Shown here piece after piece: positions 3,830 to 51,855 of a DNA stretch of 64,000 nt. This stretch comes from Nocardia anaemiae NBRC 100462 (GTDB lineage: Bacteria > Actinomycetota > Actinomycetes > Mycobacteriales > Mycobacteriaceae): positions 1 through 64,000 of the forward strand of contig NZ_BDAZ01000062.1 of assembly GCF_001612725.1 (NCBI RefSeq), written 5' to 3'. Under the pieces are notes generated by a model. That model ran no database searches. It had not been told where the DNA came from and worked only from the letters and a program-made list of their open reading frames with translations. Made by a program: the position numbers and the translations under genes. The stretch's first letter is position 1. Every line of letters begins with the position of its first letter.

Positions 3830-4197
3830 GGCGACAACGGTAATGCCAGAACCGATGGGACCAACCGTCCACACAACCCCAAGCAATGAAAGGCATTGTC
3901 CCCGTGCGCCAGGCTCGGTGTCTCGTCCCGTGCCGAACTTGCCGTGGTCGTCCCCAGCGTCCGGCACCGGCCATACCTCGACCAGGAGAGAACCCTTCCC
4001 GCACCCCGCGTCGTGATACCTCGGGGCGGGCTTCGGTCAGCCGTTATCGGTCGACAAGCGTGACGAATGTAGGGGTTTCCCGACTGCCTCGATCCACGCA
4101 CAAGCGACAGACTTTGGGTGACCGACTCGCCGCAAAGGGGCATCGCCGGCCGAAATTCCTCGTGGGCAGACAACCGGAATTTCCGGTAGGAGCATCG
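3830..4197. other. Spacer upstream of the five-gene operon
   Basis: No gene is supported here. The end of the stretch carries a good ribosome binding site (GGTAGGAGC, 4184-4192) just before the ATG at 4198. The promoter of the downstream operon should lie here, but no clear -35/-10 pair was identified. Confidence 0.5.
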
Positions 4198-4482
4198 ATG
4201 ACGACCAGTGGGAGACCCATTCGAGAGGCGCACGGGGGGGTCACCGAGACGTTGTCATCGCTGCAGAACTGGGTGGAGGCCGTGTGCGAGATGGAATTGC
4301 GGCGCTTGGGCTCCCGCGCACCCGGGCTCGACGCCGATGCCCGAGCGGAGGTGGCCCGTGCGATCCAGAGGGTAGTGGACGGCCTGCTCGGCGACCTCGG
4401 ATCCCGGGTGGCCCGCGACGCCGCCCTTGTCGACGCGCTTCGGGTGTTCTTCGAATTCGACCGTGTAGGAGGCAAGCAGTGA
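4198..4482 (+). CDS. Free-standing glutamyl-tRNA reductase dimerisation-domain protein
   Basis: A 94-residue protein whose residues ~15-88 follow the pattern of the C-terminal helical dimerisation domain of glutamyl-tRNA reductase (HemA): an ELRRLGSRAPGLDADARAEV run, then VARAIQRVVDGLLG, and a final ALRVFFEFDR helix. The catalytic and NADPH-binding domains of HemA are absent, so it cannot make glutamate semialdehyde itself. It may pair with the cell's HemA or act as a scaffold (inference). Its stop overlaps the GTG of the next gene (GTGA). It is the first gene of a five-gene unit that ends in a hemB paralogue, which fits a link to 5-aminolevulinate supply. The conserved Lys/His-rich loop before the last helices of HemA is altered. 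Confidence 0.75.
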   Translation: MTTSGRPIREAHGGVTETLSSLQNWVEAVCEMELRRLGSRAPGLDADARAEVARAIQRVVDGLLGDLGSRVARDAALVDALRVFFEFDRVGGKQ

Positions 4483-5180
4483 TCAGAGTGGGTGTGGCAG
4501 TGCCACCAGCAAACCCAGCGGTGGAGCCGGAGTTTTCCCGTCTCCTCGGCGCGCGGGCGGACCTCCATGTCACCCGCTTCCCGGTACGGCCCGGCTGCTC
4601 GCTGGCCGAGCGCCTGGATGCCTATAACGATGCGCTGCCCGAGATGATCCGTTCGTTCGGCGGCTTGCGGCTCGACGCGCTGGTCATGGCCTGCAGCGGC
4701 TCCCGCTACTTGCTGGGCCCGGCCGAGGACCGCCGCAATTGTGCCGAACTGAGCGCAGAGTTCGGTCTGCCGGTCGCCTCTGCCACCGAGGCCATCAGGC
4801 GGGCGCTGGAACACCTTGGTGCCGACGAGGTCACGTTGGTCTCGCCGTACCAGCCATGGTTGACAGCAAGCGCCGAACGGTTCTGGACCACGGCGGGCAT
4901 CCGGATCGCGCAGGTGGTCGCGGTGCAGGCCGGGACGCATTTCGCGCCCTACGAGGTGACCACGGACCAACTTGTCGCTCAGATCGAGCAGGCCGCGGTG
5001 TCGCGGGACGCGGTGCTGCTGCTGACCGGCACCGGTATGCGAACGCTGCGCGCGATCGATCTGCTGACGGAGGGGAATGAATGGGTCGTTCTTACCTCCA
5101 ACCTGTGTGGTGTCTGGTGGGCGCTGACCAGCGCGGGCCTGCGTGCAGGACTGGGGCGCGTCGAGCAGGTCGCGATATGA
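4479..5180 (+). CDS. Asp/Glu racemase superfamily enzyme (maleate isomerase/arylmalonate decarboxylase type)
   Basis: A 233-residue protein starting at GTG 4479 behind a strong AGGAGG site (4467-4472). The N-terminus GVAVPPANPAVEPEF matches the substrate-carboxylate loop of maleate cis-trans isomerases and arylmalonate decarboxylases. Two candidate catalytic cysteines are in the expected places: Cys72 in VMACSGSRY and Cys210 in SNLCGVWW. Family members act on small dicarboxylates without cofactors, by racemisation, isomerisation or decarboxylation. It overlaps its neighbours by four bases on both sides (GTGA, ATGA). The substrate is unknown; in this setting a carboxylated intermediate derived from aminolevulinate or porphobilinogen is conceivable (inference). 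Confidence 0.85.
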   Translation: MIRVGVAVPPANPAVEPEFSRLLGARADLHVTRFPVRPGCSLAERLDAYNDALPEMIRSFGGLRLDALVMACSGSRYLLGPAEDRRNCAELSAEFGLPVASATEAIRRALEHLGADEVTLVSPYQPWLTASAERFWTTAGIRIAQVVAVQAGTHFAPYEVTTDQLVAQIEQAAVSRDAVLLLTGTGMRTLRAIDLLTEGNEWVVLTSNLCGVWWALTSAGLRAGLGRVEQVAI

Positions 5181-6326: not shown

Positions 6327-7115
6327 ATGCGAATTCGGTTCCAGAAGCATGCCGTCGAGGGGCGCTCACCGCTGCTCGACAAGCTCTATGTCGACCATCT
6401 GGCGAAAGTCTCCGATCCCGACACCACAGTCGAGATCCGCACCCTGCCATCGCAGCTCTATGCGGCAGAGCTGCCCGAGGAGTTGGTCGGGTTCGGGGCG
6501 CTCGGACTGCTGTTCGGCGACTATTTCGCGCGCGTGGCCGTCTCGGCCGAACGCGACGGCTGTGCGGCGTGGATCAGCGGCGCAGGCCAAGACCCGGGGC
6601 TGGCAGCCGCGCGGGTGCGCGCCACCATCCCCGTTGTCGGGTATGGCGATGCCACCTGGCAGGCCGCTCGGCACGAGCGTCATCGGCTTGGCGTGCTCGG
6701 CTTCATCCCGCATCTGGTCGAGCCGGTCACCGCCAATATCGCTTCCGCAGGCGCCACCCTGGCCTCCTACCAGGTGATCGATGACGGCGCCGTCGTCGCC
6801 CGTGCGCTGGCCGAGGACTTCGAGCCGTTCGTGCGGGAGTACACCGCTGCCGCCGAGCGGGCCGCCAAGTCCGGTGCGCAGTGGCTGGTGCCCGCGGAGG
6901 GCATACCCAACGAGATCCTCGTCCACCTGGAGATCCGGGAGCTTTGCGGGCTGCCGGTCATCGACCCCGGCGGGTTGGCGATCAAGACCGCTGAGCACCT
7001 GGTGAGACTCCGTGATCTCGGTATAACGGCCAGGGCTGCAACCGGATATTGGTGCAGGCGGCCGTCCCCAGACATCGTCGCACACGTCGAGCAGATCTTG
7101 GAGGTCAGGTCATGA
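6327..7115 (+). CDS. Hydantoin-racemase-like (Asp/Glu racemase superfamily) protein lacking both catalytic cysteines
   Basis: A 262-residue protein with the HyuE/Asp-Glu racemase layout: a DPGLAAAR turn in the first half followed by IPVVGYGDAT, and VIDPGGLAIKTAEHL in the second. The two Cys of active racemases, in the LACFGDPGL-type and LGCAG-type loops, align with Ala86 (SGAGQDPGL) and Ala190 (LVPAEGI). It is therefore unlikely to work by the two-base Cys/Cys mechanism. It may bind a substrate, decarboxylate by another route, or serve as a partner of the Cys-containing homologue upstream. It starts one base after the monooxygenase stop and its own stop overlaps the ATG of the hemB paralogue. 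Confidence 0.8.
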   Translation: MRIRFQKHAVEGRSPLLDKLYVDHLAKVSDPDTTVEIRTLPSQLYAAELPEELVGFGALGLLFGDYFARVAVSAERDGCAAWISGAGQDPGLAAARVRATIPVVGYGDATWQAARHERHRLGVLGFIPHLVEPVTANIASAGATLASYQVIDDGAVVARALAEDFEPFVREYTAAAERAAKSGAQWLVPAEGIPNEILVHLEIRELCGLPVIDPGGLAIKTAEHLVRLRDLGITARAATGYWCRRPSPDIVAHVEQILEVRS

Positions 7116-8089
7116 GCTTCCCCGCCGACCGGCCCCGGCGACTCCGCCGTACCGCCGCACTGCGAGCGCTTGTCGCCGAGAACCGGCTGCACCCGTCGGA
7201 GCTCGTTCAGCCCATGTTCGTGCGCGAGGGCATCGAGGAGCCGAGGCCCATCCCCGCTATGCCCGGTCAGGTCCAGCACACGCGCGAGAGCCTGCGCAAG
7301 GCGGCCGCGGCCGCGGCGCAGGCGGGCGTGGGCGGCATCATGATCTTCGGTGTGCCCGAACTCAAGTACCCCGACGGTCGCGGTGCGTGGGACGAGCACG
7401 GCATCGCACAGCTCGCGATCGCCGACGTCGCGGCGGAGGTGGGCGACGCGACCGTGGTGATCGGCGATGTCAATCTCGACGAATACACCGATCACGGCCA
7501 GGTCGGACTCCTCGGCGCCGACGGCGACGTGGACAACGACGCCACGCTGCTTGCCTACGTTCGAGTTGCGTTGGCACAGGCCAGAGCTGGCGCCGACCTG
7601 GTAGCGCCGAGTGGGATGATGGACGGCCAGGTCGCCGCAATCCGTGCCGGACTGGACGGCGCCGGATATGAGCGCGTCGCCATACTGGCTTACGCCGCCA
7701 AATATGATTCCGCGTTCTACGGTCCCTTCCGCACGGCTGTCGAATCCTCGTTCATTGGCGCCAGATCCACACATCAACAGGATCCGGCCAACCTCCGCGA
7801 GGCGATCCGCGAGGTGATGCTCGACGTCGAAGAAGGCGCCGACCTGGTCATGGTCAAACCGGCAGGCCTCTACCTCGATGTGGTGCGCAGAGTGGCCGAC
7901 GCGGTGGACGTGCCGGTCGCTGCCTACCAGGTTTCGGGGGAGTATTCCGCGATCGAGGCTGCGGCGTCGCACGGGATGTTGCAGCGGGACAGAGCCATCG
8001 AGGAGAGCCTCACCGCCATCCGCCGGGCCGGGGCGCGGATCATCCTCACCTATTGGGCCACCGAGTTCGCGCAGCGACTGCATGGGTAG
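7112..8089 (+). CDS. Porphobilinogen synthase (HemB) paralogue without zinc cysteines
   Basis: A 325-residue ALA-dehydratase-fold protein. Both Schiff-base lysines are present: Lys197 (YAAKYDSAFYGPF) and Lys249 (MVKPAG), as is the VAAYQVSGEY motif. The three cysteines that bind active-site zinc in zinc-type enzymes are replaced: GDVNLDEYTDHGQVG places Asn121, Asp123 and Val131 there, as in metal-independent or Mg-dependent forms. The usual GDRKxYQ substrate loop reads GARSTHQ, with Asp, Lys and Tyr lost. It should still condense aminolevulinate or a relative, but specificity may be changed. It is unlikely to be the housekeeping gene because its neighbours are not haem genes and it closes an operon with a monooxygenase and racemase-like proteins. 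Confidence 0.85.
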   Translation: MSFPADRPRRLRRTAALRALVAENRLHPSELVQPMFVREGIEEPRPIPAMPGQVQHTRESLRKAAAAAAQAGVGGIMIFGVPELKYPDGRGAWDEHGIAQLAIADVAAEVGDATVVIGDVNLDEYTDHGQVGLLGADGDVDNDATLLAYVRVALAQARAGADLVAPSGMMDGQVAAIRAGLDGAGYERVAILAYAAKYDSAFYGPFRTAVESSFIGARSTHQQDPANLREAIREVMLDVEEGADLVMVKPAGLYLDVVRRVADAVDVPVAAYQVSGEYSAIEAAASHGMLQRDRAIEESLTAIRRAGARIILTYWATEFAQRLHG

Positions 8090-12984: not shown

Positions 12985-13245
12985 GTCGGAGCGGGTGCTG
13001 TCGTCGGTGGTAGGTGCGTTCGATCCAGCCGACGATCGCCAAGCGCAGATCCTCACGTGTGGGCCAGCGACGGCGGTCGAGCACATTGCGTTGCAGCAGC
13101 GCGAAAACGATTCCATCGCCGCGTTTGTCACCGCAGGCGCCGACGCGGCCCATGGATCCACATAATCCGTTGCGCGCCAACACCGATACGAACTTTCTGG
13201 ATCGAAACTGGGCTGCCTCGATCCGAATGCACCAGGGTGCCTTTC
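12985..13245 (-). mobile_element. IS3-family transposase remnant (orfB 3' part)
   Basis: The minus strand holds the end of an IS3-type DDE transposase: GTLVHSDRGS, then FRSRKFVSVLARNGLCGSMG, then FALLQRNVLDRRRWPTRE and LRLAIVGWIERTYHRR. The first block is in a different frame because one C is inserted after the AGC of DRGS. The region that should read DNAAMESFFALLQ contains one inserted and one deleted base that cancel out. The N-terminal integrase core and the terminal repeats are missing. It is non-functional. Confidence 0.8.
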
Positions 13246-13262
13246 GGCCCGACCGGGCGCGG

Positions 13263-13928
13263 CGCCGGTCCGAACGCCGTATCCGCGCCGCCGGGCTTGC
13301 TCGCGAAAAGTCGTTGAGGGCGTTCGACTTCGACGCCAACCCGAACATCGACCCGGCCGTGGTCAACACCCTCGCGGCTTGCGACTGGGTCACGAAAGGC
13401 ACCCCGCTCTGCCTGATCGGTGACTCCGGCACCGGCAAGAGCCACTCGCTGATCGCTCTGGGTACCGAAGCTGCGATGCACGGCTACCGCGTGAAATTCA
13501 CTCTGGCAACGAAACTGGTGAACGAACTCGTCGAAGCCGCCGAGGAGAAAGTCCTCGCGAAGACGATCGCGCGCTACGGGCGGGTCGATCTCCTGTGCAT
13601 TGACGAACTCGGATATATGGAACTCGATAAGCGCGGAGCGGAGTTGTTGTTCCAGGTTTTGACCGAGTGCGAGGAAAAGAATTCTGTCGCCATCGCATCG
13701 AATGAGGCGTTCTCCGGCTGGTCGAACACGTTCCCCGAACCGCGTCTCTGCGCCGCGATCGTCGACCGGCCGACCTTCGGCGGACGGATCATCGAGACCG
13801 GCACCCAGGCCTACCGACTCACTCGCACTGCCCTGGGCAACACTGGCGGCACCTCTGCTACACCCGCACCGCAACAGTCGGTATTCATCGACACCCCACC
13901 GCAGCAGCGACTGGAAACGGCACCCTGA
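13263..13928 (+). mobile_element. IS21-family IstB ATPase, N-terminally truncated
   Basis: The frame encodes most of an IstB-like helper ATPase: a RRSERRIRAAGLAREKSL lead-in, Walker A GDSGTGKSH, a helix carrying LATKLVNELVEAAEE, Walker B LLCIDELGYM, and the end RLCAAIVDRPTFGG. The first ~50-60 residues are missing; the frame runs back without its own start into antisense of the IS3 remnant, so the two elements are joined head to head near 13250. No istA lies next to it. The last ~40 residues (from about 13810) are not typical of IstB. Confidence 0.8.
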
Positions 13929-33846: not shown

Positions 33847-34851
33847 CTATTCGTGCCTCATCGTCAGGATGTCGGACAGGGGGCGGCGGGGAGTTGGTGG
33901 TGGGGCGGGTTCGTCATCGGGAGCGGTGCCGACACGGACGATCACCTGAGGGATCCCGGGGTGGGGGAGCATGTTCGCGATGATCTTTCGGGCCGAGGGG
34001 ATTTCGGTGATGTGGGTCATCGGGCAACTCGCCAGCCCGGTGATGGTGACCTCGAGCAGCACGGCGGAAAGTGCTTCGCCGGTGTGCAACCATGTAGTGA
34101 CGGATTCGCGTGGTGAGCTCAGGACCAGCAGGTGGGCGTGGTCTTGGAGGGGCTCCCGGCGCGTCGAATGTGGTGCGGCCGGGAAGGCACGGCCGACGCG
34201 GACGCGGACGAATTCGGCATCGGAAACCAAGGATTCGCGCGGGACGCCTTCCGGGTCACCGGAATGTCCGGCCCACCAATGTAATTCGGCCTGGTACTCC
34301 ATGTCGTAACGGCGCATCGCGGTGGTCTGAGCAGAGGCCGCGCCGAGTTTCGCGTTAGCGGTTTCGTCGAGGAGATCGAGTTCGAGGTCATGGGGCGTGA
34401 CCAGCATGCGAGCGGTGTGCAGGAGTTGCGGTAGGCCGGTGGGCGCGGACAGGGGCAGTCGGTCGGTGCGCCGCTGATCGATCGCGCGGGCGCGGGCCAG
34501 CACGCCGGTCGGTGGTTCGGGCCACCGCCGGAATTCAATCACCGCCAGATACTCGGAGCGGGTGGTGTCGGGCAGACGGGTGGTGTCGGTGTGCCAGCCT
34601 TGGGCGGCGAATGCGGTGCGTACGTGGTGCAGCATCGCGCCGCAGCTGATCACCAGTTGCCTGCCCAGCGGGTCCGCCGAGGCCAGCAGCCGGTCGTCGT
34701 CGCGGTACAGGTGCAGTCTGAGGCCGTCGAACACCCAACGCCACGGCTGGGAGTTGTGCAGTGACGGCGCTCGACTGGCCATGCGCATGGCTGCCAGCAC
34801 CGTCGGATGGTCCGGCACGGAACGTACGGAGGATGGGCTGGTTTCGGTCAT
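33847..34851 (-). CDS. Acg-family nitroreductase-like protein (copy 2)
   Basis: A 334-residue Acg-type protein, closely related to copy 1 and copy 5. It has SRAPSLHNSQPWRWVFDG, QRRTDRLPLSAP, the conserved MEYQAELHWWAGHSGD stretch and HTGEALSAVLLEVTITGLAS. Ser replaces the Val usually seen before the HN pair in other copies (PSLHNS against PSVHNT). Its own box at 34904 suggests an independent promoter. Both copies face the same way, and 202 bases separate the stop of this gene from the start of copy 1. Confidence 0.9.
   Translation of the reverse strand: MTETSPSSVRSVPDHPTVLAAMRMASRAPSLHNSQPWRWVFDGLRLHLYRDDDRLLASADPLGRQLVISCGAMLHHVRTAFAAQGWHTDTTRLPDTTRSEYLAVIEFRRWPEPPTGVLARARAIDQRRTDRLPLSAPTGLPQLLHTARMLVTPHDLELDLLDETANAKLGAASAQTTAMRRYDMEYQAELHWWAGHSGDPEGVPRESLVSDAEFVRVRVGRAFPAAPHSTRREPLQDHAHLLVLSSPRESVTTWLHTGEALSAVLLEVTITGLASCPMTHITEIPSARKIIANMLPHPGIPQVIVRVGTAPDDEPAPPPTPRRPLSDILTMRHE

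Positions 34852-49402: not shown

Positions 49403-51855
<2,453 letters not shown>

Follow-up and report, generated by a model that had tools for sequence, protein, structure and literature searches.

The first gene of a five-gene operon in Nocardia anaemiae NBRC 100462 encodes, as a protein of its own, the domain through which glutamyl-tRNA reductase (GluTR, HemA) dimerises. Profile searches and the comparison with three orthologues confirm, on sequence grounds, that this 94-residue protein (g1) is a real HemA dimerisation domain encoded alone, far from anything expected by chance. The gene is coding, conserved and under purifying selection. We analysed it within a window of 64 kb, by which we mean the whole stretch of DNA examined here (contig NZ_BDAZ01000062.1, positions 1-64,000). 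In this window g1 is followed, all on the forward strand, by genes for an arylmalonate-decarboxylase-like protein (g2), a FAD monooxygenase (g3), an Asp/Glu-racemase-like protein (g4) and a paralogue of HemB (g5) (Table 1).

Table 1. Features of the operon and of related loci (positions are those of the 64-kb window unless another record is named).
Feature	Position	Strand	Basis or remark
Shine-Dalgarno sequence of g1, AGGAG	4188..4192	+	read directly
g1, stand-alone glutamyl-tRNA reductase dimerisation domain, 94 aa	4198..4482	+	PF00745 above cut-off; three other Nocardia orthologues; dN/dS 0.30-0.50
3' end of g1: GGAGG Shine-Dalgarno sequence of g2 (4468-4472) in the last g1 codons; GTGA stop/start overlap (4479-4482)	4468..4482	+	read directly
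g2, arylmalonate decarboxylase / maleate isomerase-like	4479..5180	+	PF17645, E 7.7e-13; best solved relatives maleate isomerase 4fq5/4fq7
g3, FAD-dependent aromatic-ring monooxygenase-like, 382 aa	5177..6325	+	PF01494, E 3.7e-50; best solved relatives PnpA 6ain, HspB 7da9
g4, Asp/Glu/hydantoin-racemase-like, 262 aa	6327..7115	+	PF01177, E 7e-12; aligned with hydantoin racemase 2eq5
g5, porphobilinogen synthase (HemB) paralogue without two metal-site Cys	7112..8089	+	PF00490, E 4.8e-124
Cys-less HemB, 20 copies	window 7112-8089; L079, L080, L099-L107, L109-L112, L034, L036, L039, L040		
Streptomyces sp. NBC_00704, linear-plasmid cluster	NZ_CP109002.1, 69094-86724 (L159 10831-28461)		example of the 14-gene cluster

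A HemA domain outside its enzyme

The reading frame of g1 runs from an ATG start to a TGA stop. A sequence-only reading, made before any database search, had claimed that the encoded protein matches only the last helical domain of HemA, and the searches bear this out. The profile search with the dimerisation domain that it had suggested as a check (PF00745, GlutR_dimer) gives 25.8 bits for residues 14-74 of g1 (E 1.4e-5; gathering cut-off 22.9), and the three orthologues also score above the cut-off (24.7, 25.5 and 25.1 bits) and reach profile position 97-99. The NCBIfam model of full-length HemA matches g1 in its last domain alone (E 1.6e-9, profile positions 345-405 of 447), a confinement by which the NADPH-binding domain is absent from g1. 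The N-terminal catalytic domain (PF05201) was likewise absent from the 94 residues in the Pfam search. A match of g1 to PF25360 (TPR_ATM, E 0.0045) falls under the cut-off of that profile and was taken as chance.

Across the 8.6-Mb genome, PF00745 has three matches at E <=10, and the two above the cut-off are the housekeeping HemA (C12) and g1; the third (17.3 bits) is under the cut-off and contains an internal stop. The HemA of this genome has 489 aa. Identity of the window's g1 to it is 43-47%, with 47% over residues 14-75, and the four g1 proteins share 43-57% identity with it over 49-79 residues in BLAST alignments. GlutR_N has a single match in the genome, in the housekeeping HemA, and tblastn of the entire 64 kb with this HemA and with one HemA from the Streptomyces clusters described below found HemA sequence at g1 alone, save for a weak match (E 0.033) in the FAD gene. 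Therefore g1 is neither a broken longer HemA nor part of a split one, and both of these explanations were ruled out.

With a 29-row alignment as input, AF2 predicts a helical hairpin for g1 (mean pLDDT 81.6). The model aligns with residues 439-501 of 4yvq_A, which we take from its residue numbering to be the Arabidopsis GluTR chain, at a Z of 6.5 and with an rmsd of 2.2 for 62 residues. Higher Z scores, up to 8.9, belong to other hairpins; in VIA-align, 4yvq_A stands 25th by Z and has the lowest rmsd among the 50 matches listed. Foldseek returned no match at E <=0.001 with either the single-sequence or the alignment-based model (4yvq_A, E 6.8), and a single-sequence search of the solved structures with g1 returned none at E <=1. 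The two matches of a three-row g1 profile to solved structures (E 0.2 and 0.73) were taken as chance. An unrelated predicted fold had been named in advance as an outcome that would overturn the assignment to HemA. What was obtained is a predicted hairpin compatible with the dimerisation domain of Arabidopsis GluTR, although for helical hairpins such a match is not diagnostic and does not amount to proof.

A five-gene operon and its Streptomyces relatives

Intact operons that begin with g1 occur in four Nocardia, namely the species of the window, G087, N. niwae (G051) and N. brevicatena, and all four have g1 in first place. A protein search of 148 Nocardia genomes gave a match in 146, with the free-standing form in three (N. 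anaemiae, G087 and G051); the remaining matches sit in longer reading frames that were taken as HemA, 27 of which were aligned as such. When 397 genomes of the order were searched with a profile, 71 matched at E <=1e-12, and the only match in a short frame was that of the window, the other 70 being in frames of at least 441 aa. Searching with g4 retrieved 4 of 150 Nocardia genomes (the same three and N. exalbida, G007), and a contig scan with g4, which used two short peptide patterns and reaches close relatives only, retrieved N. niwae, N. exalbida and N. brevicatena. The operon of N. exalbida is decayed (L039 7600-9990): g1 and g2 are missing, g3 is truncated, and g4 and g5 remain. By eye, the decayed operon adjoins an apparent remnant of an IS30-type transposase.

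The GGAGG motif and the overlap of g1 with g2 are present in all four copies (the overlap is GTGA in three and ATGA in one), and the overlap suggests that translation of g2 is coupled to that of g1. Further along, g2 and g3 overlap in ATGA (5177-5180), one base separates g3 from g4, and g4 and g5 again overlap in ATGA (7112-7115). The genes flanking the operon vary between species, as judged from simple gene calls. In the window, a gene for an IstB-like ATPase of IS21-type elements (13152-13928; PF01695, E 4.2e-47) lies about 5 kb downstream of the operon. Elsewhere in the window, positions 29472-55821 hold universal-stress-like proteins (by eye), a nitroreductase-family gene (33847-34818), a GAF histidine kinase (49403-51100) and a LuxR-type response regulator (51214-51855), and by eye this region resembles an island of the DosR dormancy-type regulon.

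The motif cysteines of the families to which g2 and g4 belong have known catalytic roles. In g2 the first catalytic cysteine (Cys72) is present in 19 of 19 sequences, and the second motif reads TGTGM, with a cysteine in none of the 19. Neither of the two catalytic-cysteine motifs of g4 holds a cysteine in any of 20 sequences; going by these motifs, g4 is not a cysteine-pair racemase.

In the actinobacterial HemB enzyme two cysteines belong to the metal site, and the Schiff-base lysines are catalytic; HemB proteins without these cysteines exist in other bacteria. The HemB encoded in the Nocardia operons and in the Streptomyces clusters has Asn in place of one cysteine and Val or Thr in place of the other (20 of 20), and both cysteines are kept in 16 of 16 housekeeping HemB proteins. 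The lysines K197 and K249 are retained in both sets (20/20 and 16/16). From these residues, g5 is possibly a porphobilinogen synthase that is metal-free or has an altered substrate, and the Cys-less form of HemB is perhaps a more striking feature of the operon than g1. A Zur/zinc-sparing role of g5 was not favoured, as the other operon genes are not zinc genes. Self-resistance of the alaremycin type was also considered; alaremycin biosynthesis reportedly proceeds via an ALA-synthase-like enzyme. Identical rows were merged before trees were built (35 of 36 rows kept for HemB, 55 of 58 for the dimerisation domain). In the HemB tree the cluster proteins of both genera lie on one side of a branch that separates them from housekeeping HemB (support 99/95), so the Nocardia and Streptomyces operons share ancestry.

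The Streptomyces relatives were reached through g4. A class-wide profile search of 394 genomes gave five matches at E <=1e-20, with two strong ones outside Nocardia, in one genus. Within Streptomyces, 18 of 392 genomes match, and by tblastn 17 of the 18 hold all 14 markers of a cluster with the order GluRS-like, MFS, LLM oxidoreductase, LysR, DMT transporter, LuxR-annotated, g2, g3, g4, HemB, HemA, CoA ligase, HemL and CoA transferase. Two clusters with fragmentary or frame-broken genes (G1241, L114; G1096, L108) were counted as clusters and left out of the HemA and HemB sets, which thus draw on 15 of the 17. Three genomes in which a g4-like racemase stands in another context (G1107, L113; G796; G754) were not counted. 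The racemases of G754 and G796 (L082 and L081) are distant ones and lie between genes for FAD-dependent oxidoreductases, isochorismatase-like and PEP-mutase-like proteins, by eye a different, catabolic-looking cluster.

Both layouts contain the set g2-g3-g4-g5 in the same order, with the Cys-less form of HemB. They differ in that the Streptomyces clusters have full-length HemA, HemL, GluRS-like, CoA ligase, CoA transferase and transporter genes in place of the Nocardia g1. The one cluster HemA checked (L079) passes the NCBIfam model TIGR01035 over its whole length. Sequence resembling g1 was found in 12 of the 17 clusters (E <=0.01), at the 3' end of HemA only, and in the other five there was none. 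Around the five Nocardia loci, the 16-21 kb searched contained no GluRS-like, HemL or CoA-ligase gene and no HemA body. Four Nocardia genomes, of which three carry the operon, have a single HemA catalytic domain apiece, and the Streptomyces tested has two. HemL above the cut-off is likewise found once per Nocardia genome (four tested) and twice in the Streptomyces; G087 and G051 have further HemL-like aminotransferases, which fall under the HemL cut-off. With one HemA and one HemL in the tested Nocardia, and no supply genes near the loci, the most likely source of aminolevulinate, if the operon uses it, is the housekeeping supply. We also considered the conserved C-terminal tail of the Streptomyces cluster HemA (QEVMA, KIEAIA) as a docking peptide. 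This idea was dropped: judging from the coordinates, the reading frame of HemA reaches or overlaps the gene that follows, so the tail may simply encode the ribosome site of that gene.

Possible partners of g1

Homology between g1 and the PF00745 domain of GluTR covers helix 1 and the turn, continues through the first half of helix 2 and is found again in the last helix. Beyond lacking the catalytic and NADPH-binding domains, g1 differs from GluTR in two places: the second half of helix 2 is rewritten, with GDLGSRLARDA where HemA has a stretch of the type HAPTVRVKQLA, and six residues are deleted from the loop before the last helix (helix 3). With the helix 2 stretch replaced and these loop residues lost, the surface for a HemA partner may be gone. 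The four g1 proteins agree at 38 of 82 core positions, and 20 of the 38 are common to HemA (54 HemA rows, housekeeping and cluster). Thirteen invariant positions are nearly absent from HemA, eight of them between residues 62 and 83. In helix 1 the residues common to g1 and HemA lie on one face (50 of 5000 shuffles scored as high), and helix 2 shows no one-faced sharing of this kind (3455 of 5000).

The reading that we tentatively prefer is that g1 is a functional, operon-specific adaptor of the microProtein kind that would bind the single HemA of the cell and couple the output of this enzyme to the five genes. It would associate with the dimerisation domain of this HemA, and would keep the enzyme beside the HemB paralogue of the operon or redirect it there. 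Aminolevulinate, or its semialdehyde precursor, would then in part feed g5 and after it g2-g4, and the end product would be a small molecule derived from porphobilinogen or aminolevulinate. In Nocardia an adaptor to a housekeeping enzyme would stand in the place of the dedicated supply enzymes of the relatives. A link of the g1 operon to aminolevulinate supply is supported by the HemA, HemL and GluRS-like context in Streptomyces together with the single HemA of Nocardia.

The sequence-only reading had proposed in the same vein that g1 could control or recruit HemA and divert aminolevulinate, and our results go only part of the way with it. The conserved domain beside a HemB paralogue, the Streptomyces counterpart with a HemA, HemL and GluRS-like protein of its own, and the housekeeping enzyme as the sole HemA of the tested Nocardia speak for such a role. 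Contact with HemA itself fares less well: helix 2, in its second half, and the loop before helix 3 differ from HemA, and the HemA proteins of three g1 carriers (N. anaemiae, G051 and G087) have no change that is common to them and lacking in others, a D-to-G substitution being found in G087 alone. In its fullest form the proposal is that bacteria have here a microProtein whose origin is the dimerisation domain of a biosynthetic enzyme. It would capture the one glutamyl-tRNA reductase of the cell and link it to a distinct, cysteine-free HemB type of actinobacteria, and the five genes would then produce a metabolite from porphobilinogen or aminolevulinate with none of the dedicated HemA, HemL and GluRS-like genes of the Streptomyces relatives; in that form we consider it rather improbable.

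Ranking close behind the HemA adaptor is the possible alternative of a partner within the operon. Here g1 would be a self-dimerising hairpin that binds the HemB paralogue, the FAD monooxygenase or the racemase-like protein as a subunit or scaffold, HemA would play no part, and the HemA ancestry of the domain would be history only. The 13 invariant positions nearly absent from HemA, with their concentration between residues 62 and 83, look like a new conserved surface and fit this alternative at least as well as they fit the adaptor. It also agrees with the overlap of g1 and g2 in all four copies and with the situation in N. exalbida, where g1 is lacking together with g2 and part of g3. On the other hand, 20 of the 38 invariant positions are still common to HemA; the placement of an aminolevulinate-pathway domain beside a HemB paralogue is hard to call coincidence; and the Streptomyces homologues of g2-g5 manage without a separate g1.

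Selection, origin and significance

Over the last 80 codons, pairwise dN/dS of g1 is 0.30-0.50 in all six pairs, with bootstrap upper limits of 0.52-0.87. The GGK tail may merely encode a ribosome site and was left out of a second test; without the last eight codons, which contain the Shine-Dalgarno sequence of g2, dN/dS is 0.29-0.43 (upper limits 0.52-0.96). When g1 is divided into halves, the upper limit exceeds 1 in three of six pairs for residues 15-45 and in three of six for residues 46-86. Under simulated neutral evolution along an assumed star tree the median dN/dS was 1.0, with the lowest 5% at 0.62-0.65. Whole-gene values are 0.33-0.53 for g1, 0.20-0.39 for g2, 0.21-0.28 for g3, 0.13-0.17 for g4 and 0.06-0.10 for g5. 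Those of g1 are the highest of the five genes in five of the six pairs, the exception being G087 and N. niwae (g2 0.39 vs g1 0.38).

These values weigh on a third explanation, by which g1 is a translated relic, the remnant of a former operon HemA kept mainly as a leader that brings ribosomes to g2. Such an origin would suit the full HemA of the sister clusters, the rank of g1 as the least constrained gene in five of six pairs, the ribosome site and stop/start overlap that its last codons carry for g2, and its N-terminal lengths, which vary between copies (94-124 aa). None of the four copies has a stop or frameshift, a point against a relic; however, open frames alone are weak evidence, because all four frames also survived in 5-10% of the neutral runs (205 of 2000 at branch 0.2 and 100 of 2000 at branch 0.3). 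The relic explanation is less likely because of the dN/dS of g1, which is below 1 in every pair with or without the tail, and the 13 new positions are identical in all four proteins. In addition, the Streptomyces HemA sits behind HemB and not before g2, so a relic would require a rearrangement, and there is no HemA body in the window or at the four other Nocardia loci and no second GlutR_N in three carrier genomes. We therefore regard a relic as unlikely. Least probable is a brake, in which g1 pairs with HemA subunits to give one-armed, less active dimers that would cut back haem synthesis during expression of the operon or guard against aminolevulinate build-up: it can claim the same domain homology (PF00745; 47% identity to own HemA) and the frequent disruption by microProteins of the complexes of their targets (PMC5381583, PMC7534434), but the operon's HemB needs aminolevulinate if it is HemB-like, as its two retained lysines would have it, and starving the pathway would for that reason be odd.

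The best explanation of g1 is descent from the dimerisation domain of a glutamyl-tRNA reductase, with cluster HemA and Nocardia HemA as candidate sources. In the domain tree, which has 88 columns and a long g1 stem, neither placement is rejected (AU p 0.47 with cluster HemA, 0.32 with Nocardia HemA). By BLAST, g1 is 43-57% identical to the window genome's HemA vs 28-39% to two cluster HemAs, a comparison in which the cluster HemA domain itself is on a long branch.

LITTLE ZIPPER and Id are examples of microProteins. MicroProteins are defined as small single-domain proteins related to larger multidomain proteins (PMC5381583, PMC7534434). g1 resembles them as a single domain related to the larger HemA of the same genome, and differs from them in being bacterial, derived from a metabolic enzyme and borne in an operon, with a partly changed interaction surface. 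A second parallel is the Arabidopsis FLU-GluTR pair (PDB 4yvq), in which the regulator FLU docks on the dimerisation domain of GluTR (PMC4726326). There the domain is a docking platform, as it may be in Nocardia, and the g1 model aligns with the GluTR chain of that structure; however, in Arabidopsis the domain is bound by FLU, a TPR protein, whereas in Nocardia the domain itself is the free part. A different route is described for actinomycetes, where a C4 aminolevulinate synthase feeds C5N-unit metabolites (PMC4525017). Among the matches listed in our search of open-licence papers, titles and the beginnings of abstracts mentioned no stand-alone GluTR dimerisation domain and no cluster of this kind.

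If g1 binds HemA, it would be a free bacterial dimerisation domain that steers the enzyme controlling entry to tetrapyrrole synthesis, and would be a compact means of channelling a primary precursor to a second pathway. Irrespective of the role of g1, the Nocardia operon and its Streptomyces relatives appear to form a group of clusters that is built on the C5 aminolevulinate route with a Cys-less HemB and that was not found described in the open-licence literature searched. Since the two layouts compare closely, supply enzymes being present in one and only the domain in the other, the question is testable.
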